This document shows positions 17,084-32,974 of a stretch of DNA of 32,974 nucleotides, piece after piece. The notes under the pieces are model-generated. The model had not been told where the DNA came from. It was given only the letters and a program-made list of their open reading frames with translations, and searched no databases. The stretch covers positions 1 through 32,974 of the forward strand of contig JACRDC010000022.1 of assembly GCA_016218705.1 (NCBI GenBank), in the 5' to 3' direction. Source of the stretch: Desulfarculus sp. GTDB taxonomy: Bacteria; Desulfobacterota; Desulfarculia; Desulfarculales; Desulfarculaceae. A program made the translations under genes and the position numbers. Each line of letters begins with the position of its first letter. Within the stretch, counting starts at the first letter, position 1.

Positions 17084-17287
17084 ATACCAAGTTGCGATCA
17101 AACGAATAGTTTGATCGCAACTTGGTATGCGGGCCATGGATCCACCCCAAGCAAACTGCGTTTGCTTGGGGACCCCGGGGAATGGCCCGCCGGGCGCGAA
17201 AGCGCCCGGGAGGCCGGGCAAAACCACGTTTTTGCCCGCTCGAGGGCAAATCAAAGAGCCATGGATGGCTTTGATTGCATATTGGTA
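17084..17287 (+). repeat. Multi-hairpin dispersed repeat, copy 1
   Basis: This ~200 bp element recurs almost base for base at 32753-32953. It is a chain of inverted repeats: a perfect 20 bp stem with loop GAATA (17084-17128); a 9 bp outer stem GCGGGCCAT/ATGGCCCGC (17129-17137 with 17182-17190) enclosing a 12 bp stem with loop TGC (17145-17171); a GC stem capped by a GAAA tetraloop (17190-17209); a GGGCAAAA/TTTTGCCC stem (17216-17237); and a last stem around 17247-17278. The outer ends are also imperfectly complementary (17085-17102 against 17270-17287, 15 of 18 positions), like the terminal inverted repeats of a miniature element. Confidence 0.85.
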
Positions 17288-23549: not shown

Positions 23550-23972
23550 ATGAAGATACTCGCGGCCCATGACGGCTCGGCCCCAGCCGACCAGGCGCTT
23601 TTGTTCGCCGCGGAGGTGGCCCAGAAACTGGGGGGGCAGCTTCACCTGGTCACGGTGGTGCCCGACCTGTGCCTCAGCTCCGAGGAAGTCTCGCCCAACG
23701 AGTGCAGCCTGATCTCCAGCTCCCTGGAGCACGACGCCCAGGGCGGCCTCAAGAAGGCCCAGGAGCTCCTGACCCAGCAGGGGGTCAAGGCCCTGACTCA
23801 CTTCAAGACCGGCCGGCCGGTGGACGGCATCCTGGACGCCGCCGAGGAGATCGGCGCCGACATGATCGTGGTGGGCAGTCACGGCAAGCACGGGGCCAAG
23901 CGCTGGCTCTTGGGCAGCGTCTCCACCAAGGTGGCCGAGTATGCCAAGTGCAAGGTCCTCATCGTGAAGTAA
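23550..23972 (+). CDS. Universal stress protein (UspA family), ATP-binding type
   Basis: This 140-residue single-domain Usp starts at ATG 23550 after GTAGGAGGT. The N-terminal strand and Asp are present (KILAAHDGSAPADQAL). The C-terminal nucleotide motif G-x2-G-x9-G-S fits VGSHGKHGAKRWLLGSVS (about 110-127), so it should bind ATP. Usps are small cytoplasmic dimers induced by stress or by energy and redox limitation; several bind and regulate neighbouring membrane transporters. It is the first gene after the sigma-54 promoter and lies 20 bp before the YeiH-family transporter gene, which suggests a regulatory role for that protein. Confidence 0.93.
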   Translation: MKILAAHDGSAPADQALLFAAEVAQKLGGQLHLVTVVPDLCLSSEEVSPNECSLISSSLEHDAQGGLKKAQELLTQQGVKALTHFKTGRPVDGILDAAEEIGADMIVVGSHGKHGAKRWLLGSVSTKVAEYAKCKVLIVK

Positions 23973-23992
23973 AGGACGAGGGGTAAGGGAAC

Positions 23993-25120
23993 ATGGAAGA
24001 GAAAAGCTTGATACAGAAGCTGCCGCGCATCCTGCCCGGCCTGCTGTTCATGGTGGGGTCGGTGATACTCTTGCGGCTCTACGTGGAGCCCTGGATCAAG
24101 GACATCACGGTCTTCGGCACCAAGGGCTGGCTGGCCCGCGAGCTCAACCTCAACTACATCCTGCTCAGCATCATCCTGGGCATGCTCTACCGCAACGTGC
24201 TCTTCGGCGGCAAGATACCGGCCTGGGCCGAGGAGGGCTTCCGCACCACCCGCCTGTTCATCAAGGGCGGCGTCATCATGCTGGGCTGCCTGTACACGGT
24301 CATGAGCCTGGCCAAGGTGGGCGGCTGGGCCATCGTGCTGATCCTCACCTTCGTCTTCGGCACCGTGCTCTTCGTCATGTGGGTGGGGCGCATGCTGGGC
24401 GCCGACCGCTCCACCATCGGCACCATGGGCGCGGCCTGCGGCGTCTGCGGCGTCAGCGCCTGCATCGCCACGGCGCCGGGCGTCAAGGCCAAGGCCACCG
24501 AGGTGGCCATGGCCATTGCCACCATCCTGGGCTTCGGCCTGATGACCATGTTCATCAGCCCCTTCATCGGCAAGGCCCTGGGCCTGTCGGACCTGCAGTA
24601 CGGCGCCTGGGTGGGCACGGGCATATTGAACTCCGGCCAGGTGCTGGCCACCTGCCTGGCCTTCAACCCCACCATCGCCAAGGGCACGGCGGTCTACTAC
24701 GGCGAGCTGTGGAACCTGGTGCGGGTCATCTCCATCCCCTTCGTGGTCTTCATCATCACCGCCTGGTACTACAGCAAGGAGGCCAAGGAGGAACAGGGCG
24801 GCCAGGCCCAGAAGCAGAGCTTCGGTCAGATCCTCAAGGAAAAGTTCCCCATGTTCGTGCTGGGCTTCATGGCCATGACCATCCTCTCCACCCTGGGGCT
24901 CTTCGGCCCCGAGAAGTCGGAGACCAACCACCTGCTGCGCGAGGCCATGCAGTGGATCTTCGCCATCGGGCTCATCGGCCAGGGCGCCTACATTGACTTC
25001 CGCGAGATCAAGCAGGCCGGCGGCAAGCCGCTGAAGATCGGCCTGGCGGCCGGCGCCACCAAGTACGTCCTGGCGCTCATCATCATCAAGCTGTTCGTCC
25101 CCAGCGATTACGACGTTTAG
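23993..25120 (+). CDS. YeiH/UPF0324 family transporter (putative sulfate/sulfite exporter)
   Basis: This 375-residue integral membrane protein has about 10 hydrophobic helices. Family features are NYILLSIILGMLYRNVLF, FIKGGVIMLG, the glycine/cysteine-rich ACGVCGVSACIATAPGVKAK (about 144-163) and WVGTGILNSGQVLATCLAF. The family (Cons_hypoth698/YeiH; relatives called TauZ in sulfonate degradation) is annotated as putative sulfate exporters, with limited experimental proof. The C-terminal part ends IGQGAYIDFREIKQAGGKP, as in the family. It starts at ATG 23993 with a weaker AAGGGAAC ribosome site. Flanking Usps, a sulfate-reducer setting and the downstream Apr-like genes fit a sulfur-anion role; direction and substrate are inferred. 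Confidence 0.88.
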   Translation: MEEKSLIQKLPRILPGLLFMVGSVILLRLYVEPWIKDITVFGTKGWLARELNLNYILLSIILGMLYRNVLFGGKIPAWAEEGFRTTRLFIKGGVIMLGCLYTVMSLAKVGGWAIVLILTFVFGTVLFVMWVGRMLGADRSTIGTMGAACGVCGVSACIATAPGVKAKATEVAMAIATILGFGLMTMFISPFIGKALGLSDLQYGAWVGTGILNSGQVLATCLAFNPTIAKGTAVYYGELWNLVRVISIPFVVFIITAWYYSKEAKEEQGGQAQKQSFGQILKEKFPMFVLGFMAMTILSTLGLFGPEKSETNHLLREAMQWIFAIGLIGQGAYIDFREIKQAGGKPLKIGLAAGATKYVLALIIIKLFVPSDYDV

Positions 25121-25159
25121 GCGCGGGGACCCCGGGTCATAAGGAAGGAGAGATAGCTC

Positions 25160-25567
25160 ATGGCAGGTGCTGCTGACGCCAAGGGCGGCAAGATGACCGT
25201 GTTCAAGTCCGACCGCCACGAGGACTACGCCTCCATGGTCATGGTGGGCATCGTGACGGCGGCCATATTGTTCTACATGGCCTTTTTGGTCGGCGAGATC
25301 AAGCTCAAGGCCACCGACGACGGCAAGGTGATGGAGATCCTGGTGAAGCCCGACACGATGGTCAAGAAGGGCGACAAGCTGGCCACCCTGGCGGCCAAGG
25401 ACAAAAAGATGGTGGGCGGCAAGCTGGAGGAGAAGCCGGTGACCCGCACCGTCACCTCCACCCTCAACGGCAAGGTGCTGTCGGTCAAGGCCAAGCCTGG
25501 CGACGCCGTCAAGAAGGGCAAGGATACGCTGATGGTGCTGGTGCCCGAGAAGGGGCAACTGCCCTAG
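25160..25567 (+). CDS. Membrane-anchored biotinyl/lipoyl-like small protein
   Basis: This 135-residue protein has a short hydrophilic N-terminus, one membrane helix at about 25-45 (SMVMVGIVTAAILFYMAFLV) and then a barrel-sandwich hybrid domain. Two half-motifs are clear: DGKVMEILVKPDTMVKKGDKL (54-74, one residue shorter in the core) and GKVLSVKAKPGDAVKKGKD (104-122). In biotinyl and lipoyl domains the hairpin between the halves carries a modified Lys (MKM or DKA). Here the hairpin is longer and reads AKDKKMVGGK, so modification at Lys83 is possible but not assured. The ribosome site AAGGAAGGAGAG precedes ATG 25160. Its place between the transporter and the second Usp suggests an accessory subunit. 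Confidence 0.8.
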   Translation: MAGAADAKGGKMTVFKSDRHEDYASMVMVGIVTAAILFYMAFLVGEIKLKATDDGKVMEILVKPDTMVKKGDKLATLAAKDKKMVGGKLEEKPVTRTVTSTLNGKVLSVKAKPGDAVKKGKDTLMVLVPEKGQLP

Positions 25568-25577
25568 GGTCTGACGG

Positions 25578-26039
25578 TTGCCACGCATTCTGCTCATACT
25601 GGACGGCTCCGGCCCGGCCCTGGACGAGGCCCTGCGCCTGGCCGCCGAGCGCCGCGCCGAGCTGAGCGCCCTGTTCGTGCAGGAGGGCGGCTGGCGGGGG
25701 TTCACGGGCAACGACTGGCTCTCCACCAGCAATTCCTACGTCGGGTTTTTAGAGTACATCGAGGACCAAGAGGCGGACGAGGCCCGGCGCGCGATGCAAG
25801 AATTCGTGCGCCGGGCCACGGCCCAGGGCGTGGAGCACCGGGTCAAGCTGGTCCGGGGCAGCCTCTCCCAGGAGGCCCTGGCCGAGCTGGGTCAGGGCTA
25901 CGACCTGTTGGTCATGGCCCATCCCCTGAGCCGGGGCCTGGAGTCCCTGCAGGGCGCCGCCGCCAAGATCATCAAGCTGGCCCCCTGCTCCATCCTGCTA
26001 GTCAAGGCCGGGGCGCCCGGCGGCCAGACCCCCTCCTAA
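25578..26039 (+). CDS. Degenerate universal stress protein (UspA-like)
   Basis: This 153-residue Usp-fold protein is read from TTG 25578, the only start near the beginning of homology because an in-frame stop lies two codons upstream. It opens RILLILDGSGPALDEALRLA, the usual first strand and helix, and ends CSILLVK. The nucleotide-binding region reads MAHPLSRGLESLQGAAAKI, without the G-x2-G-x9-G(S/T) motif, so ATP binding is unlikely, unlike the first Usp of this operon. It lies 10 bp after the biotinyl-like gene. The pairing of one ATP-type and one non-ATP Usp around a transporter is notable. An insert at about 40-65 (WRGFTGNDWLSTSNSYVGF) is unusual. Confidence 0.82.
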   Translation: MPRILLILDGSGPALDEALRLAAERRAELSALFVQEGGWRGFTGNDWLSTSNSYVGFLEYIEDQEADEARRAMQEFVRRATAQGVEHRVKLVRGSLSQEALAELGQGYDLLVMAHPLSRGLESLQGAAAKIIKLAPCSILLVKAGAPGGQTPS

Positions 26040-26252: not shown

Positions 26253-27803
26253 ATGGAGTCGGCGGCTACCGTATCGAGAGAGGGCAGGGGCGCGCTGGCC
26301 TGCCTGGGCGACAACATCCGGGCCTGCGGCAAGAGCCCCGGCAAGCTATTGTGGGGCTTCGCGGCGGCCTGGTTGGTCTTCTTCCTGATGCTCTGGGTGC
26401 TGCCCGCCCCGGCGGGGCTGAGCAAAAGCGGCATGGCCGTGGCGGCGGTGGTCATGTGGGCCACCATCATGTGGGTCACCGAGGCCCTGCCCGTGGGCAT
26501 CACCGGCATCTCCATACCCACCCTGCTCATCCTGACCCAGGCCCTGCCGGCCAAGGGCGGCAGGCCGCCCATGGCCGAGGTCTTCTCGGGCTTCACCGAC
26601 CACGTGGTGTGGCTGTGCCTGTTCGCCTTCATGGTGGGGGCGGTGATGCAGCTCTTGAAGCTGGACCGGCGCATCGCCCTGGCCATCCTGGACAAGGTGA
26701 AAGCAAGCAACGTGGGCCGGGTGATCTGGGGCTTCTTCGGGGTGAACATCGTCCTGTCGTTCCTGATCCCCGCCGCCAACGCCCGCGCCGCCACCCTGCT
26801 GCCGGTCATCGGCGGCATCACCAACCTGTTGGGCGACAGCCAGTCCGAGCGCCAGGCCAAGAAGGCCATCGTCATCCAGTCCATGGTCTACGCCTCCATG
26901 ATCTGCGGCGTCTTCATCATGACCGCCCACCTGCCCAACATGATCATGGTGGGCATCTTCGACAAGGCCGGCATGAAGATAGACTACCTGCACTGGATGC
27001 TGTTGCAGTTCCCCTACCTGGGCATGTTCGTGCTCACCCAGTGGTGGGTGCGCTATCACTTCCAGACCGCCGGGGTGGAGATCGGCGGCGGGCACCAGGC
27101 CATCAAGCAGATGCACCAGGACCTGGGACCCATGAGCCAGGCCGAGTGGATTCTGCTGGCCGTCTTCGCCCTCATGGGCCTGGCCTTCCTGCTGGGCAAG
27201 GGCAGCCCCCTGTTCGAGCTGCACACCTTCCAGCTGGGCATCATCGGCCTGGTGGGCATGATGGTGCTGTTCATCCCCGGGCTTTTCCCTTTCACCTGGA
27301 AGCAGGTGCAGGAAAAGACCACCTGGGGCACTTTCCTGCTCTTGGGCGGGGCACTGTCCATGACCTCGGCCATGACCAAGAGCGGTCTGGCCGGCTGGCT
27401 GGCCGACACCATCCACGGCCTGGTGGCAGGGCTACCCTGGTGGGGGGTGGTGCTGGCCATGATGGCCGGCACCCACGTGATGCGCATCGGCATGCTCAGC
27501 AACGTGGCCGCCGTGGCCATGCTGGCCCCCATCGTCTTCGCCATGGCCCCCAAGCTGGGCCTGCACCCGGTGGCCTTCACCCTCCTGGTCTGCGACACCG
27601 ACACCTACGCCTACCTGTTGCCCACCCAGATCACGGCGGCGGTCATCGCCTACGGCACCGACACCTTCAGCACCACCGATTACGCCAAGGCGGGCTGGGT
27701 CTGCATCCTCATCGCCATGGCCTACGGCCTGCTGGTGATGGCCCCCTGGTACGCACTCCTGGGCCTGCCGGTCTGGGACCCCCAGGCCCCCTGGCCCTGG
27801 TAG
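26253..27803 (+). CDS. DASS-family (SLC13) anion transporter
   Basis: This 516-residue transporter of the divalent anion:sodium symporter family has about 11-12 hydrophobic helices. Family features are MWATIMWVTEALPVGITGIS (about 70-89), FSGFTDHVVWLCLFAFMVGA, and the paired re-entrant Ser/Asn-Thr-type regions around AANARAATLLPVIGGITNLL and MRIGMLSNVAAVAMLAPIV. Known members carry dicarboxylates, citrate or sulfate using sodium. ATG 26253 was chosen for the GGGGAGCAAGG upstream; an earlier ATG at 26166 would add a Gly/Arg/Pro-rich stretch that does not look real. It lies 38 bp before the AprA-like gene, so import of that enzyme's substrate (an oxyanion or organic anion) is a reasonable inference. 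Confidence 0.88.
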   Translation: MESAATVSREGRGALACLGDNIRACGKSPGKLLWGFAAAWLVFFLMLWVLPAPAGLSKSGMAVAAVVMWATIMWVTEALPVGITGISIPTLLILTQALPAKGGRPPMAEVFSGFTDHVVWLCLFAFMVGAVMQLLKLDRRIALAILDKVKASNVGRVIWGFFGVNIVLSFLIPAANARAATLLPVIGGITNLLGDSQSERQAKKAIVIQSMVYASMICGVFIMTAHLPNMIMVGIFDKAGMKIDYLHWMLLQFPYLGMFVLTQWWVRYHFQTAGVEIGGGHQAIKQMHQDLGPMSQAEWILLAVFALMGLAFLLGKGSPLFELHTFQLGIIGLVGMMVLFIPGLFPFTWKQVQEKTTWGTFLLLGGALSMTSAMTKSGLAGWLADTIHGLVAGLPWWGVVLAMMAGTHVMRIGMLSNVAAVAMLAPIVFAMAPKLGLHPVAFTLLVCDTDTYAYLLPTQITAAVIAYGTDTFSTTDYAKAGWVCILIAMAYGLLVMAPWYALLGLPVWDPQAPWPW

Positions 27804-27841
27804 GCGCCCCGCAACGCAATAACCGGATCAAGGAGATTCCC

Positions 27842-29611
27842 ATGGCTCAGATGCTTCCCCAAAACCTGGCCGACATACCCGACGAGGTGGTGGACTGCGG
27901 CCTGCTCATCATCGGCGGGGGCAACGCCGGCTGCTTCGCCGCGGTGGAGGCGCGCAAGCTCTCTCCCGACCTGGACATCGTCATCATGGAGAAGGCCCAC
28001 ATCAGCCGCAGCGGGGCTACAGCCGCCGGCATGGACGCCATCAACACCTACATACCCCCCGGCAAGACCCCCGAGGACCTGGTGCGCTGGAGCCGCTCGC
28101 AGGTGGGCGGCGGCCCCATCCGCGAGGACCTGGCGCTCAGCAACGCCCAGGAACTCAACCAAGCCGTGGACGACCTGGAGGAGTGGGGCCTGCCCATCGT
28201 GCGCGACGAGGAGGGCAACATCAAGTACCGGGGCGGCTGGGACATCAGCATCCGGGGCGAAGCATTGAAGCCCATCATGGCCGAGAAGGCCGTGGAGACC
28301 GGGGCGCGGGTCTACAACCGGGTGGTGGCCAGCAACTTGCTCATGGACCAGGGACGCTGCATCGGCGCCATGGGCTTTGGCCTGCGCGACGGTAAGTTCT
28401 ACGTGTTTCGCGCCAAGGCCACCATCGTGGCCACCGGCGGGGCCTGCGGCCTGTACAAGTCCTACACCGCCGACGCCACCACCAGCCATCACCAGACCTG
28501 GATGTGCCCCTTCAACGTGGGCACCGGTTACGCCATGGGCATCCGCCAGGGGGCCGAGATGACCTCCCTGGAGCAGCGCTGGGTGGCCACGCGCACCAAG
28601 GACTTCTGCGGGCCGGTGGACACCATCAGCGTGGGCTACCGCTCGGCCATGATTAACGCGCGTGGCGAACTGATCCTGGCCGAACGCTACGCCCACCTGG
28701 GCGGCGACAAGGCCCCCCGCTACATCCGCGCCAACGCCCCCATGGACGAGTGGCTGGCCGGACGCGGCCCCACCTACGTGGACACCACCCATCTGTCGCC
28801 CCAGGAGGCCAAGGAACTCAAGATAGACTATCTCTGCGAGCGCCCCTCCTTCGTGCTCTTCCTGGCCAGCCGGGGTCACGACGTCACCAAGGAACCCATA
28901 GAGATTTACGGCTCCGATCCCTACATCGTGGGCGGCCACACCCAGAGCGGCTATTGGGTGGACATAAAGCGCATGACCACCATGCCAGGCCTCTTCGCGG
29001 CGGGCGAGACCGCCGGCGGCAACCCCAATAAGTTTGTGGGTGGCTGCGCCGCCGAGGGCAAGCTGGCCGCCCGGGGGGCGTTGGAATACATGAGCGGCCT
29101 CACTCTGCCCCCCCTGGACCTGAACCAGGTGGCCGCTGAGAAGACCCGCGTCTTCGCGCCGCTGCTACGCGGCCCGGAGTTCGACGGCGTCAGCCCCTTG
29201 GAGATGGAGGAGCGCATGCAGCGGCTCATGGACGAGTACGCCGGCGGTACCTCCCAATTCTACCGCACCAACGAGGAGCGGCTGGACTACGCGCTCAGGC
29301 ACCTGCGCATGCTCATGGGGCAGACCGGCCTCTTGACCGCCCGCGACCTGCACGAGCTGATGCTGGCCCACGAGGTCATTGACCGCCTGGACGTGGCCGA
29401 GGTGCTCTGCCATCACCTGAAGCACCGCCGCGAGACCCGCTGGCCGGGCTGGCAGACCCGCTCCGACTTCCCCCAGGTGGACCCGGCCCTGGATTGCTTC
29501 GTGGAGACGGTGCGCGACCCCGCCACCGGCCAGGTGCGGGCCTTTACCCGGCCCTACGAGCAGGTGGTGCCCGGCGACCGCTACACCCCCACCCTGGACG
29601 GCAAGTTCTAG
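27842..29611 (+). CDS. AprA-like flavoprotein (APS reductase alpha-subunit paralogue)
   Basis: This 589-residue flavoprotein of the fumarate reductase/APS reductase superfamily starts at ATG 27842 after CAAGGAG. The FAD motif is LLIIGGGNAGC (GGGNAG, 25-30). It aligns by eye with sulfate-reducer AprA to the end: RSGATAAGMDAINTYI, LEEWGLP, RARDLHEL-type TARDLHELML, and RWPGW...RSDF near the C-terminus. Positions I match to AprA active-site residues are kept: Asn68 (AINTY), Trp220 (QTWMCPF), Arg251 (VATRTKD) and His366 (VGGHTQSG). It is about 70 residues shorter than typical AprA, lacking internal insertions. With the AprB-like protein it probably forms a soluble redox enzyme acting on an adenylylated or other sulfur oxyanion; the substrate is not proven. 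A plain fumarate-reductase-like role is less likely. Confidence 0.87.
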   Translation: MAQMLPQNLADIPDEVVDCGLLIIGGGNAGCFAAVEARKLSPDLDIVIMEKAHISRSGATAAGMDAINTYIPPGKTPEDLVRWSRSQVGGGPIREDLALSNAQELNQAVDDLEEWGLPIVRDEEGNIKYRGGWDISIRGEALKPIMAEKAVETGARVYNRVVASNLLMDQGRCIGAMGFGLRDGKFYVFRAKATIVATGGACGLYKSYTADATTSHHQTWMCPFNVGTGYAMGIRQGAEMTSLEQRWVATRTKDFCGPVDTISVGYRSAMINARGELILAERYAHLGGDKAPRYIRANAPMDEWLAGRGPTYVDTTHLSPQEAKELKIDYLCERPSFVLFLASRGHDVTKEPIEIYGSDPYIVGGHTQSGYWVDIKRMTTMPGLFAAGETAGGNPNKFVGGCAAEGKLAARGALEYMSGLTLPPLDLNQVAAEKTRVFAPLLRGPEFDGVSPLEMEERMQRLMDEYAGGTSQFYRTNEERLDYALRHLRMLMGQTGLLTARDLHELMLAHEVIDRLDVAEVLCHHLKHRRETRWPGWQTRSDFPQVDPALDCFVETVRDPATGQVRAFTRPYEQVVPGDRYTPTLDGKF

Positions 29612-29649
29612 TGCGGACTGGCACGGAACGGTAGTGCCGCTGACTCTTG

Positions 29650-29677
29650 ATGTAGGGGCGGGGTTTACCCCCGCCCG
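29650..29677 (+). repeat. TGTAGGGGCGGGGTTTA repeat unit inside the operon
   Basis: This unit matches the arms of the inverted repeat at 19385-19468. Here it is self-complementary: GGGCGGGG (29656-29663) and CCCCGCCC (29669-29676) around TTTAC. It sits in the 147 bp gap between the AprA-like and AprB-like genes. Confidence 0.7.
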
Positions 29678-29758
29678 GTTTTCCACCCTGGATGCGCGGG
29701 TGATGGCAAGCAGGCAAACAAACAGGCCCCAGGCGGCCTGAGGAACAAGGAGGCGTTC

Positions 29759-30088
29759 ATGCCACCCAAGGTTGACATCAACAAGTGCGACGGCTGCCAG
29801 GCCCAGGACGAGCCCCTGTGCGAACAGGTCTGCCCGGGCAACCTCATGACCCTGGGCCAGGACGGCAAGGCCCTCTGCCGCGCCCTGCGCGACTGCTGGG
29901 ACTGCATGTCCTGCACCAAGGTCTGCCCCAAGGGGGCCATCGAGACCCGCATCCCCTATCAACTGGGCTATCACGGGGCCTCGCTCACGCCCATGCTGGG
30001 CACCAACTCCATCACCTGGACCTGCGTGGACATCGAGGGCAACGTGGAGCGCTTTAGGGTCAAGACCCGCGGGCGTTTCGGCCAGTGA
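29759..30088 (+). CDS. AprB-like ferredoxin (APS reductase beta-subunit paralogue), short form
   Basis: This 109-residue protein starts at ATG 29759 after AACAAGGAGG. It carries two [4Fe-4S] sites: C10-x2-C13-x7-C21-x3-CP and C46-x2-C49-x2-C52-x3-CP. The CWDC at 46-49 matches CWEC of AprB, whose Trp lies between the cluster and the flavin. Homology continues through a beta segment (LTPMLGTNSITWTC, VERFRVKTRG) and stops there. Canonical AprB is about 150-165 residues and ends in a tail that wraps around AprA; that tail is absent. It should shuttle electrons between the QmoB-like partner and the FAD of the AprA-like subunit. It overlaps the next gene by 4 bases (GTGA). Confidence 0.87.
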   Translation: MPPKVDINKCDGCQAQDEPLCEQVCPGNLMTLGQDGKALCRALRDCWDCMSCTKVCPKGAIETRIPYQLGYHGASLTPMLGTNSITWTCVDIEGNVERFRVKTRGRFGQ

Positions 30089-32460
30089 GCCTCGCGCCCC
30101 GCATCGGCCTGCTGGCCTGGGACCAGGGCCAGGCCCTGGCTCAGGCCCTGGACTGGCCCGGCCTGCTCCTGGCCCTGGGCAAACAGAAGGACGTGAAGCT
30201 GGTCCTGGCTCCCACCAGCCTGGGGCAGGGCCGGGCCGAGTTGGCCGCGGCCCTGGCCGAGGGGCAGGTGGAGCGCCTCCTGGTGCTGGGCGCCCCCAGC
30301 CACACCCAGCGCCAGGACCTGCTGGCCGCCCTGGCCCCGGCGGGTCTCAACCCCCACCTGGCGGCTTGGCTGGACCTGGAGGCCGAGGGTGTGCTGGACC
30401 TCGGCCTGCCGGCGGCCCAGCGCCAGAAAAAGGCCCTTACGCTGGTCAAGATGCACCTGGCCCTCCTGCGCTTGGCCGCGCCCCTGGAGCCCGTGGAGGC
30501 GCCGGCCACGCGAGCCGCCCTGGTGCTGGGCGGCGGGGTGGCCGGCCTGGAGGCGGCCAAGCGCCTGGCCGCCTGTGGGGTGGAGGTTCACCTGGCGGAG
30601 CGCGCCGCTAGCCTGGGCGGCCGGGTGGCCCAGTTGTCGGGGCTCTACCCCCTGGGCTGCGATCCCCTATGCGGCCTGGTGGTCAGCTTGCGAGAACTAT
30701 GCGCCAATGGCCAGGTCCACATCCACACCTTGAGCCAACTCACGGACCTGGCCGGCGCTCCCGGGGCCTTCAGCGCCACCCTGAGCCGGGCGCCGCGTTT
30801 CGTGGACCCCGAGCTGTGCAATGGCTGCGGCCAATGCGCTACGGTCTGCCCGGTGGAGGTGCCGGCCGCCCAGGCCTGGTGGCAGGACGAGCCGCCGGTC
30901 AACCCGCGAGCCTTTGCCCTGGCAGGGCTTAAGCCGGCCAAGGCCATCGGCCCCGGCGGCCCCCTGGCCTTCCCGCCGGCCTGGCGGGTGCGCCGCGAGC
31001 TATGCCCGCCGGGCTGCCGGGCCTGCGCCGAGGCCTGCCCGTCCCGGGCCCTCTGCCTGGAGCAGGGCGAGGAGCATTTCACCATCGAGGCCGGCGCCCT
31101 GATCCTGGCCACCGGTTGGGACCCCTATCCGCTGTCGCGCCTGGAGCGCTGGGCCTACCAGCAATCGCCGCGCGTGGTGGGCAACCTGGAGCTGGAGCGC
31201 CTGCTCTCGCCGGCGGGCGCCGCCGCCCTGGCCGGCATGGAACCCCGGACGGTGGCCTTCATCCAGTGCGCCGGCTCCCGCGACCAGGCCCACCTGCCCT
31301 ATTGCTCCGGGGTCTGCTGCTCGGCCAGCCTGAAGCAGGCGCGCCGCCTCAAGGAGCTCTACCCCGACCTGCTCTGTTACGTGTTTTACCAGGACATCCG
31401 TACCCTCGGCTTCGAGGAGGACCTCTACCGCCAGGTGGCGGCCCTGCCGGGGGTGGTCCTCGTGCGCGGCCTGCCGGCCCAGGCCCAGTTGTTGGAGGAC
31501 GGGCGCCTGGGCATCCGCGCCGAGGACGCCTTCTCTGGGGTGGAGTTGAAGCTGCGGCTGGATTTGCTGGTGCTGGCCGGGGGCATGACCCCCAGCGCCG
31601 GCAGCGTCGAACTGGCGGCCCGGCTAGGCCTGCCGCCTGGGCCTCACGGCTTCTACTGGTCCCACCCCCAGTGCCGCCCGGCCGACTCGGGGCGTAACGG
31701 TATCTTCGCCGCCGGCTGCGGCCGCGAGCCCATGAACGTGACCCGGTCCCTGGAATCCGCCGCACTGGCCGCTTGCCACGCCTTGCCCCTGATGAGCGGC
31801 CAAGTGCGGCTTGCCCCCCACCTGCCCCGGCTGGACAAGGGCAAGTGCGACCAGTGCAAGCGCTGCCTGGAGGAGTGCCCGGCCGGGGCCTGGTCCCTGG
31901 ACGAGCGCGGCTTCCCCCTGCTGGCCCCCACCCGCTGCCGCCAATGTGGGGTGTGCATGGGCGCCTGCCCGCTGGCCGCCATCTCCCTGCCGGGCTCCAC
32001 CATCAGGCAGATGGCGGCGGCCATCGAGGTGCTGGGCGACGATGCCGCCTTCGCCGGCCAGGCCCCGCTGGTCCTGGCCCTCTTGTGCCAGAACGACGCC
32101 TGGCTGGCCGCCCGCCAGGCCGCCCGCGCCGGCTTGGCCCTGCCGCCGGGCCTGGTGATGCTGCCCTTGACCTGCGCGGGGGCGCTGAACAACGCCCTGG
32201 TGGCCGACGCCCTGTCCCTGGGCGTGGACGGGGTGCTCATCGGCGGTTGCCCCGGCCAGCAGTGCCACTACCGCACCGGCGGCGAGTTGGCCAGCCGGCG
32301 GGCGCGGGACCTGGGCGGCAAGCTTACGCAGATGCGCCTGGAGCCCCAGCGGGTGCGCTTCGAGCCCCTGGAGGTGGGGCAGGCCGAGGACTTCGCCCGG
32401 CTGGCGGCCGGTTTCGCCCAGGAACTAAAGGCCCTGGGTCCCAATCCCTTCAGGATGTGA
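30085..32460 (+). CDS. QmoB-like HdrA-MvhD fusion electron-transfer flavoprotein
   Basis: This 791-residue cytoplasmic protein starts at GTG 30085 in a GTGA overlap. Domains in order: an HdrA N-terminal domain (1-135), which has lost the CSPR-type cysteine (here LGAPSHTQRQ); an FAD domain (LVLGGGVAGLEAAKR, 146-160); two [4Fe-4S] motifs (C245-x2-C248-x2-C251-x3-CP and C307/C311/C314/C318); the HdrA signature CAGSRD...YCSGVCC (395-412); two more ferredoxin motifs (C588-C598 and C618-C628); and a C-terminal MvhD-like domain (about 661-785, with GGCPGQQCHY). QmoB, which feeds electrons between the quinone pool and APS reductase, has the same HdrA-MvhD design. A bifurcating Hdr role is an alternative. 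It is most likely the redox partner of the AprAB-like pair. Confidence 0.88.
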   Translation: MSLAPRIGLLAWDQGQALAQALDWPGLLLALGKQKDVKLVLAPTSLGQGRAELAAALAEGQVERLLVLGAPSHTQRQDLLAALAPAGLNPHLAAWLDLEAEGVLDLGLPAAQRQKKALTLVKMHLALLRLAAPLEPVEAPATRAALVLGGGVAGLEAAKRLAACGVEVHLAERAASLGGRVAQLSGLYPLGCDPLCGLVVSLRELCANGQVHIHTLSQLTDLAGAPGAFSATLSRAPRFVDPELCNGCGQCATVCPVEVPAAQAWWQDEPPVNPRAFALAGLKPAKAIGPGGPLAFPPAWRVRRELCPPGCRACAEACPSRALCLEQGEEHFTIEAGALILATGWDPYPLSRLERWAYQQSPRVVGNLELERLLSPAGAAALAGMEPRTVAFIQCAGSRDQAHLPYCSGVCCSASLKQARRLKELYPDLLCYVFYQDIRTLGFEEDLYRQVAALPGVVLVRGLPAQAQLLEDGRLGIRAEDAFSGVELKLRLDLLVLAGGMTPSAGSVELAARLGLPPGPHGFYWSHPQCRPADSGRNGIFAAGCGREPMNVTRSLESAALAACHALPLMSGQVRLAPHLPRLDKGKCDQCKRCLEECPAGAWSLDERGFPLLAPTRCRQCGVCMGACPLAAISLPGSTIRQMAAAIEVLGDDAAFAGQAPLVLALLCQNDAWLAARQAARAGLALPPGLVMLPLTCAGALNNALVADALSLGVDGVLIGGCPGQQCHYRTGGELASRRARDLGGKLTQMRLEPQRVRFEPLEVGQAEDFARLAAGFAQELKALGPNPFRM

Positions 32461-32462
32461 GC

Positions 32463-32753
32463 ATGACCACGCCCGCCACCCCGGTGGCCTTCGGCCTGGC
32501 CTCGCCGCCCGCCTGGTCCTGCGTGCAGTGCGGGGCCTGCGTCTCCGGCTGCCCCCAGGCCCGCCCGCCGGAACTGTCACCCCGCCGGGTGCTGCGCCTG
32601 GCCCAACTGGGCCTGAGGGAGCAGGCGGCCCGCCACCCCTTCCTGCACGCCTGCCGCTACTGCGGCAAGTGTCTGGTGCATTGCCCCCAGGGCGTGGAGG
32701 TGGCCCGCATCCTCAGGCGCCTGGCCTTCGAGCGGCTCGTGATCTGGTACTAA
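32463..32753 (+). CDS. Short HdrC-like iron-sulfur protein, possibly truncated
   Basis: This 96-residue protein starts at ATG 32463, two bases after the previous stop. It has the two CCG-independent [4Fe-4S] motifs of HdrC: C20-x2-C23-x2-C26-x3-CP and C64-x2-C67-x2-C70-x3-CP, the second followed by QGVEVARILRRLAFERL. HdrC proteins and the HdrC part of QmoC normally continue for some 80 or more residues beyond this point. The stop TAA (32751-32753) coincides with the left end of the multi-hairpin repeat, so the 3' part may have been lost by its insertion. It would relay electrons to or from the QmoB-like protein. No membrane QmoC-type subunit is visible before the window ends. Confidence 0.8.
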   Translation: MTTPATPVAFGLASPPAWSCVQCGACVSGCPQARPPELSPRRVLRLAQLGLREQAARHPFLHACRYCGKCLVHCPQGVEVARILRRLAFERLVIWY

Positions 32754-32953
32754 TACAAGTTGCGATCAAACGAATAGTTTGATCGCAACTTGGTATGCGG
32801 GCCATGGATCCACCCCAAGCAAACTGCGTTTGCTTGGGGACCCCGGGGAATGGCCCGCCGGGCGCGAAAGCGCCCGGGAGGCCGGGCAAAACCGCGTTTT
32901 TGCCCAGCCGATCAGCAATCAAAGCCATGGATGGCTTTGATTGCATATTGGGA
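32753..32953 (+). repeat. Multi-hairpin dispersed repeat, copy 2
   Basis: This copy is in the same orientation as that at 17084-17287 and is almost the same over the first 150 bases. The stems are the long stem with loop GAATA (32753-32796, one base deleted from the left arm); the outer stem 32797-32805 with 32850-32858 around the 12 bp stem 32813-32839; the GAAA-tetraloop stem 32858-32877; the GGGCAAAA stem 32884-32905; and a perfect 14 bp stem 32915-32928 with 32931-32944. The linker before the last stem differs from copy 1, but the stem is kept and is even more perfect, which argues that base pairing matters. Confidence 0.85.
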
Positions 32954-32974
32954 TGGGCCGCGCGCAAGGGCCAC

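Follow-up and report, generated by a model that had tools for sequence, protein, structure and literature searches.

Here, we analysed a stretch of 32,974 nucleotides from Desulfarculus sp. (contig JACRDC010000022.1; hereafter the window) that makes up an entire contig in a draft genome of 4.2 Mb and 99% completeness. Near its end lies a five-gene module coding for a DASS-family anion transporter, two proteins resembling the AprA and AprB subunits of adenosine 5′-phosphosulfate (APS) reductase, and two Hdr-type electron-transfer proteins. The AprA-like protein falls into a separate clade with the catalytic residues of APS reductase, its own invariant pocket residues and recurring gene neighbours, and its occurrence is associated with the sulfite reductase subunit DsrA and not with ATP sulfurylase (Sat). 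These sequence comparisons suggest, with a probability that we put at about one half, that the module codes for a soluble reductase that would release sulfite from an imported, non-sulfate sulfur anion and feed it to DsrAB. An earlier note on this DNA had described five consecutive genes in the order given below, and all were re-found as open reading frames on the forward strand:

26253..27803, forward strand: DASS-family anion transporter, 516 amino acids (aa); PF00939 at 216 bits and TIGR00785 at 201 bits, above cut-off
27842..29611, forward strand: AprA-like FAD subunit of the DASS-linked clade, 589 aa; NF005331 at 581 bits, TIGR02061 at 366 bits
29759..30088, forward strand: AprB-like 2x[4Fe-4S] subunit, 109 aa; TIGR02060 at 83 bits, below the cut-off of 136
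30085..32460, forward strand: HdrA-MvhD fusion with a GTG start, 791 aa; NF040770 (HdrA2-like) at 473 bits, PF02662 at 97 bits
32463..32753, forward strand: HdrC-like 2x[4Fe-4S] protein, 96 aa with eight cysteines; TIGR03290 at 50 bits, PF13187/PF13534

A tree was built from 71 sequences, with fumarate-reductase-like proteins as the root; in it, the window AprA-like protein was placed in its own clade (SH-aLRT 95–100), sister to canonical AprA, to the 3′-phosphoadenosine 5′-phosphosulfate (PAPS) reductases and to two further types. The 13 canonical AprA sequences and the nine PAPS reductases of the Methanothermococcus (Mt) type each formed a single clade (100 in both cases) that left the window protein outside, the type found beside sat-aprBA-qmo in Gram-positive sulfate reducers constituted another clade (100), and a fast-evolving archaeal member (L064) branched just outside the main clade. 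The separate clade with the same neighbours that the earlier note had expected is borne out by the tree and by the recurring gene order; the two placements that the note had held against its own reading, inside canonical AprA or inside the fumarate reductases, were not recovered, and the catalytic residues are homologous. A further AprA paralogue (L082–L085 and L092; 43% identical, with Asn at position 145) is usually followed by its own AprB, about 60% identical to the window AprB, and by HdrA, and in Gram-positive sulfate reducers it adjoins sat and the canonical aprBA-qmo genes.

The AprA-like protein exceeded the curated cut-off of NF005331, adenylyl-sulfate reductase subunit alpha (581 vs. 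557 bits), a name that stands for annotation and not for tested function. Its best solved relative by phmmer was the PAPS reductase alpha subunit of Methanothermococcus thermolithotrophicus (8a8o_A, 486 bits), ahead of Archaeoglobus fulgidus AprA (2fja_A, 319 bits), and fold comparison ranked the relatives as the sequences did (8a8o, TM 0.86/0.91). The AlphaFold model bears out the fold, with pLDDT below 50 at residues 199–227, 244–258 and 357–369. An assignment to canonical AprA was rejected (366 bits against the TIGR02061 equivalog cut-off of 642, and a position outside the canonical clade), as was one to the flavoprotein of fumarate reductase or succinate dehydrogenase (127 bits against the TIGR01812 cut-off of 567, with the Apr-type residues R265, R317 and H398 present). 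The AprB-like protein matched 1jnr_B (82 bits) and 8a8o_C (70 bits), lacks the canonical C-terminal tail (109 aa vs. 150–166 aa) and, judged by conservation across 53 homologues, keeps the cluster cysteines and Trp47 at the flavin side. Both subunits are thus shorter than the canonical ones, as had been pointed out before; however, those of 8a8o are equally short (571 and 104 aa), so that size is no evidence of a new enzyme.

The catalytic residues N68, R251, R296 and H366 are kept in the window protein, where the persistence of Asn68, Arg251 and His366 had already been recorded, and the latter three align with N74, R265 and H398 of A. fulgidus. In A. fulgidus numbering, N74, W234, R265, R317 and H398 are invariant (N74, R265 and H398 in 69/69 clade members), and R265 and R317, present in all 69, occur in 0/8 fumarate-reductase-like proteins of the same genomes. 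Around the nucleotide site of APS reductase, four residues are confined to the clade, namely W95, D145, D274 and N446 (W83, D134, D260 and N396 in the window protein); 69/69 members carry them, compared with 0/33 proteins of the other Apr types. All non-canonical types share an Arg at residue 141. Position 145 is located at the ribose of the substrate, and Gln145 of APS reductase sits where a 3′-phosphate would clash (Jespersen et al., PMC10322725); the residue is Gln in 13/13 canonical sequences and Asp in every clade member (Asp134 in the window). In the Methanothermococcus enzyme (MtPAPSR), PAPS binding was assigned to Lys120-Arg121-Ser122 (PMC10322725), and the corresponding 3′-phosphate loop of the Mt type (Lys/Arg-Arg-Ser/Asn) is absent here, with Gly132-Trp133-Asp134 in its place and the Asp invariant in the clade. 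The Asp at the 145 site argues against PAPS as the substrate, whereas a nucleotide without a 3′-phosphate would still be compatible.

The neighbourhood of the gene is conserved as well. Among 62 related loci found by pattern search and chosen by similarity, DASS-AprA-AprB formed the constant core in most. A Crp/Fnr-type gene lies near the module in 50 of these loci; the HdrA fusion was counted in 31, HdrC in 20 and HdrB in 16. In some loci the fusion gives way to an HdrA accompanied by a stand-alone MvhD and by Flx A/B/C-like proteins, and four have TctC/TctB/TctA genes in place of the DASS gene. These DASS-AprA-AprB loci span Desulfobacterota, Nitrospirota, Bacillota and Chloroflexota, and one Chloroflexota locus (L038) combines DASS-AprA-HdrA-HdrB and dsrAB within about 13 kb. 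Since this first set had been chosen by similarity, an independent check was made across 398 genomes sampled evenly from a single phylum, which returned DASS in 9/9 loci and, among the complete ones, AprB in 8/8, Crp in 7/8 and an HdrA-type protein in 6/8, with the order DASS-AprA-AprB in 8/8. The gene arrangement is not a matter of chance. Six homologues of 49–56% identity in the same sample, nearer to PAPS reductase, have neither the clade pocket nor DASS, Crp or HdrA. A scan of 97 neighbour proteins beyond the core set returned no family in more than three, and hence no substrate-specific helper enzyme emerged. About eight loci have a PF12974 solute-binding protein as a neighbour and one has a PF13531 protein; these would fit an oxyanion, without settling the substrate.

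In the even sample, DsrA was present in 15/15 module carriers compared with 55/398 genomes overall (hypergeometric P 2e-14, without correction for kinship). ATP sulfurylase was found in 7/15 carriers and 16/40 other DsrA genomes and was thus no commoner in carriers; the six homologues of 49–56% identity showed DsrA in one genome and ATP sulfurylase in five. In its occurrence, the module follows DsrA, not ATP sulfurylase, and therefore travels with sulfite reduction rather than with sulfate activation. Among 51 carrier genomes, 49 had siroheme sulfite reductase-type genes, mostly as adjacent pairs of DsrA/DsrB size, 34 had ATP sulfurylase and at least 29 had a canonical AprA above cut-off. The remaining 17 were without ATP sulfurylase, several of them also without a PF01507 match of CysD strength, and among these 17 are the isolates Moorella stamsii and Anaerospora hongkongensis, which have DsrAB. 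Colman et al. 2020 (PMC7174415) give the archaeon MV2-Eury as having DsrAB but neither Sat nor canonical Apr; the AprA-like gene of this organism (MAG MV2.Eury.2014) is L064, and it carries the pocket signature. The window's own genome has Sat (contig C56) and DsrAB-like genes (contig C10), and neither sat nor qmoA or qmoC lies near the module, as the earlier note had stated. The window AprA-like protein is the only AprA found in this genome bin, so that its description as a second Apr enzyme holds for many relatives but not for the bin itself. A 95% relative (G001) has a canonical aprA that is split in its assembly, and the absence from the Desulfarculus bin is probably an assembly gap, possibly a loss.

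In a motif alignment, both canonical SNT motifs of the window DASS protein are altered (PAANARA and SNVAAV), and the protein is distant from the solved SLC13 carriers. All sampled module-linked DASS proteins are without the usual SNT motifs and fall into the types PA..R../SNV[AG]AV and PTV[SA]ET/SA[AV]AMGA, pointing to a probably unusual mode of substrate binding. The HdrA-MvhD fusion has an FAD domain, several [4Fe-4S] sites and a C-terminal MvhD domain (PF02662, FlpD, at 663–785), and HdrA of 5odc matches it at 314 bits; HdrB is absent from the window and from its 88% relative. The cluster cysteines of HdrA and of the HdrC-like protein are conserved and, as those of AprB are also kept, an electron route through these proteins can be assumed. 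A QmoABC complex was rejected, for there is one HdrA-MvhD protein together with a 96-aa HdrC-like protein that has no membrane domain, and the contig ends 221 bp past the HdrC-like gene. Because the window stops there, genes downstream of hdrC are not visible.

From these observations we infer import, direction of reaction, sulfite product, electron route and regulation as follows. The DASS protein (TctABC in a few relatives) would import a sulfur-containing anion other than sulfate, which the cytoplasmic AprA/AprB-like FAD/iron-sulfur enzyme would cleave reductively by APS-reductase chemistry, with reduced FAD attacking the sulfonate sulfur and sulfite leaving the flavin adduct. Electrons would pass from HdrA-MvhD/HdrC (elsewhere HdrABC or an NADH-linked Flx-HdrA) to the two AprB clusters, and a Crp/Fnr-type regulator would control the gene set in relatives. 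The sulfite would be passed to DsrAB and therefore respired without ATP being spent on sulfate activation. That it is made from another imported compound is probable because the carriers respire sulfite, often without a gene for sulfate use. We hold more tentatively the wider proposal that the module is a previously unrecognised, widespread entry to sulfite respiration, in which an Apr-family enzyme with HdrA/Flx electrons would release sulfite from an imported, non-adenylylated sulfur compound and let DsrAB-bearing microbes that lack ATP sulfurylase respire it at no ATP cost. As leads to the substrate, thiosulfate or polythionates are candidates because of the physiology of Sat-less carriers and the oxyanion-type binding proteins near some loci, and small organosulfonates because DASS and TctABC carry organic anions. 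An acceptor with a potential above that of thiosulfate would suit the NADH-linked Flx partners better, which speaks for polythionates or sulfonates.

Several alternatives were weighed against this proposal. The protein might be an APS reductase isoform, or in this genome a replacement for AprBA, acting on Sat-made APS with electrons from HdrA/HdrC and with sulfate imported by DASS. Such a role would agree with the retained catalytic residues, the name of NF005331, the existence of DASS sulfate carriers in sulfate reducers (PMC5840216) and a genome that has Sat and DsrAB but no other detected AprA. We regard it as unlikely, since ATP sulfurylase is missing in 8/15 and 17/51 carriers (some without a CysD-strength match either), at least 29/51 carriers keep a canonical AprA in addition, as does the 95% relative in split form, and the canonical Gln145 is uniformly replaced by Asp. 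A Methanothermococcus-like PAPS reductase serving sulfur assimilation is very improbable: although that enzyme is the closest solved structure and its subunits are equal in size, Lys120/Arg121/Ser122 are replaced by Gly132/Trp133/Asp134 with an invariant Asp, the true bacterial Mt-like enzymes sit in another clade beside CysD, CysN and CysC genes, and the module is tied to the dissimilatory DsrAB. A cytoplasmic enzyme that reduces or dehydrogenates an organic acid (for example, an unsaturated di- or tricarboxylate) brought in by DASS or TctABC also seems improbable. Both carriers typically transport carboxylates and the fold lies within the fumarate reductase superfamily; however, the pocket is Apr-like, with R265 and R317 setting the clade apart from fumarate-reductase-like proteins, and the tight DsrAB link would be left unexplained. 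Finally, the reaction might run in reverse, excess sulfite from DsrAB metabolism being oxidised onto AMP or another acceptor and the product exported by the transporter. In favour of this are the reversibility of APS reductase, the exporter-like YeiH/PF03601 genes upstream of the module here and near dsrAB in L038, and TauE-like genes near two loci. Against it, the related MtPAPSR gave no reverse reaction (PMC10322725), no route for using APS is known in Sat-less carriers, and NADH-linked Flx-HdrA partners suit electron delivery; we consider this direction unlikely.

Some observations also weigh against the sulfite-releasing reductase that we favour. The substrate may hold no sulfur, because carboxylates are at least as common a cargo of DASS and TctABC as sulfur anions. 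Sat and canonical AprAB are present in many carriers as well, two incomplete carrier genomes (G007 and G012) show no DsrAB, co-occurrence with DsrAB is no proof of a shared pathway, and the genomes are kin by descent. The MV2-Eury gene has one internal stop (TAA) in its assembly, either a sequencing error or the mark of a decayed gene. Moreover, the active site is modelled with low confidence in the AlphaFold model. The earlier reading of an Apr/Qmo-like enzyme for a different substrate is partly supported, being strengthened by the separate clade, the fixed and changed pocket and the tracking of DsrA instead of Sat, while its substrate is so far a candidate and its import presumed; that note had overlooked the methanogen PAPS reductase as the nearest relative, the regulator and the DsrAB link. 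The enzyme is a separate, DsrAB-linked member of the Apr family with a separate pocket, probably supplied with electrons by Hdr proteins. The module is a testable candidate source of sulfite for microbes with DsrAB that are unable to activate sulfate, and the two co-occur across several phyla; in turn, surveys that use AprA as a marker of sulfate reduction may include this enzyme, for which APS is probably not the substrate.

The genes are closely packed from AprB onward, as had been described, with a 4-base AprB/HdrA overlap; the spacing needs slight correction in that the HdrC start lies two bases past the HdrA stop. The AprA-like and AprB-like genes are 147 bp apart (29612–29758), compared with just 29 bp in L011, the 88% relative. 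The 147-bp gap contains one further feature:

29656..29676, no strand: GC-rich hairpin with 8-bp perfect arms, followed by TTTT

The hairpin (folding z −1.8 vs. shuffles) is a possible attenuator or partial terminator, and the gap with hairpin and T-run may set the subunit ratio. Upstream of the module (23550–26039) lie usp, yeiH (PF03601), a gene for a small membrane protein of biotin/lipoyl-like type and another usp, a run that recurs upstream of the module in the 95% relative L010, while a Crp/Fnr-type regulator gene follows 3′ of hdrC in L011. Elsewhere in the window, an element of about 200 bp occurs at 32756–32955 and 17088–17285, made up of several hairpins that are almost perfect (arms of 16 bp and 12 bp at 100%), with a folding z of −8.5. 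It has at least 40 genome copies at 86–100% identity, many starting at contig ends, with only fragments in L010 and L011, and looks like a dispersed palindromic or miniature inverted-repeat transposable element (MITE)-like repeat that broke the assembly.

Among further homologues, L086, L087 and L094–L122 are Mt-type PAPS reductase alpha subunits, L086 adjoining CysD/CysN/CysC-like genes, which suggests that an assimilatory FAD-type PAPS reductase is widespread in bacteria. In the Negativicutes, where such subunits are common, up to 81 of 300 genomes gave matches at 40–48% identity, and all 28 matches that were extracted were of the Mt type; only Anaerospora carries the DASS type, and the group is therefore of no use for testing.

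A description of the module was sought in the searchable literature and none was found. The main text of Colman et al. 2020 (PMC7174415) refers to an AprA-like 'divergent family of paralogous proteins' in sulfite-reducing Diaforarchaea, mentions it only while excluding sulfate reduction, and describes no module, pocket or DsrAB association. As Moorella reduces thiosulfate, the same paper considers the role of its DsrAB unclear. The Moorella relative Calderihabitans has Dsr but yielded no phs genes, and its thiosulfate pathway was for that reason described as unknown (PMC7306483).

Of the known systems, MtPAPSR (8a8o) is the best match in sequence and structure, sharing short alpha and beta subunits, the same catalytic residues and, in its bacterial relatives, an alpha gene placed before the beta gene; the module differs in its clade, in the missing Lys-Arg-Ser 3′-phosphate signature, and in its link to DASS, HdrA, a Crp regulator and DsrAB rather than to CysD/N/C. 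With AprBA and QmoABC it has in common an FAD subunit paired with a 2x[4Fe-4S] ferredoxin subunit, the catalytic Asn/Arg/His and an HdrA-type donor. Unlike that system, it shows the order alpha then beta, as first noted for the window, together with no AprB tail, changes at residues 95, 141, 145, 274 and 446, no sat, QmoA or membrane QmoC, and an occurrence in Sat-less genomes. The HdrA-MvhD/HdrBC and FlxABCD-HdrABC systems resemble it in an HdrA with FAD, an MvhD domain and HdrC clusters, and Flx A–C-like genes are present in several relatives; in contrast to both, its partner is an Apr-like enzyme, and the window has no HdrB.

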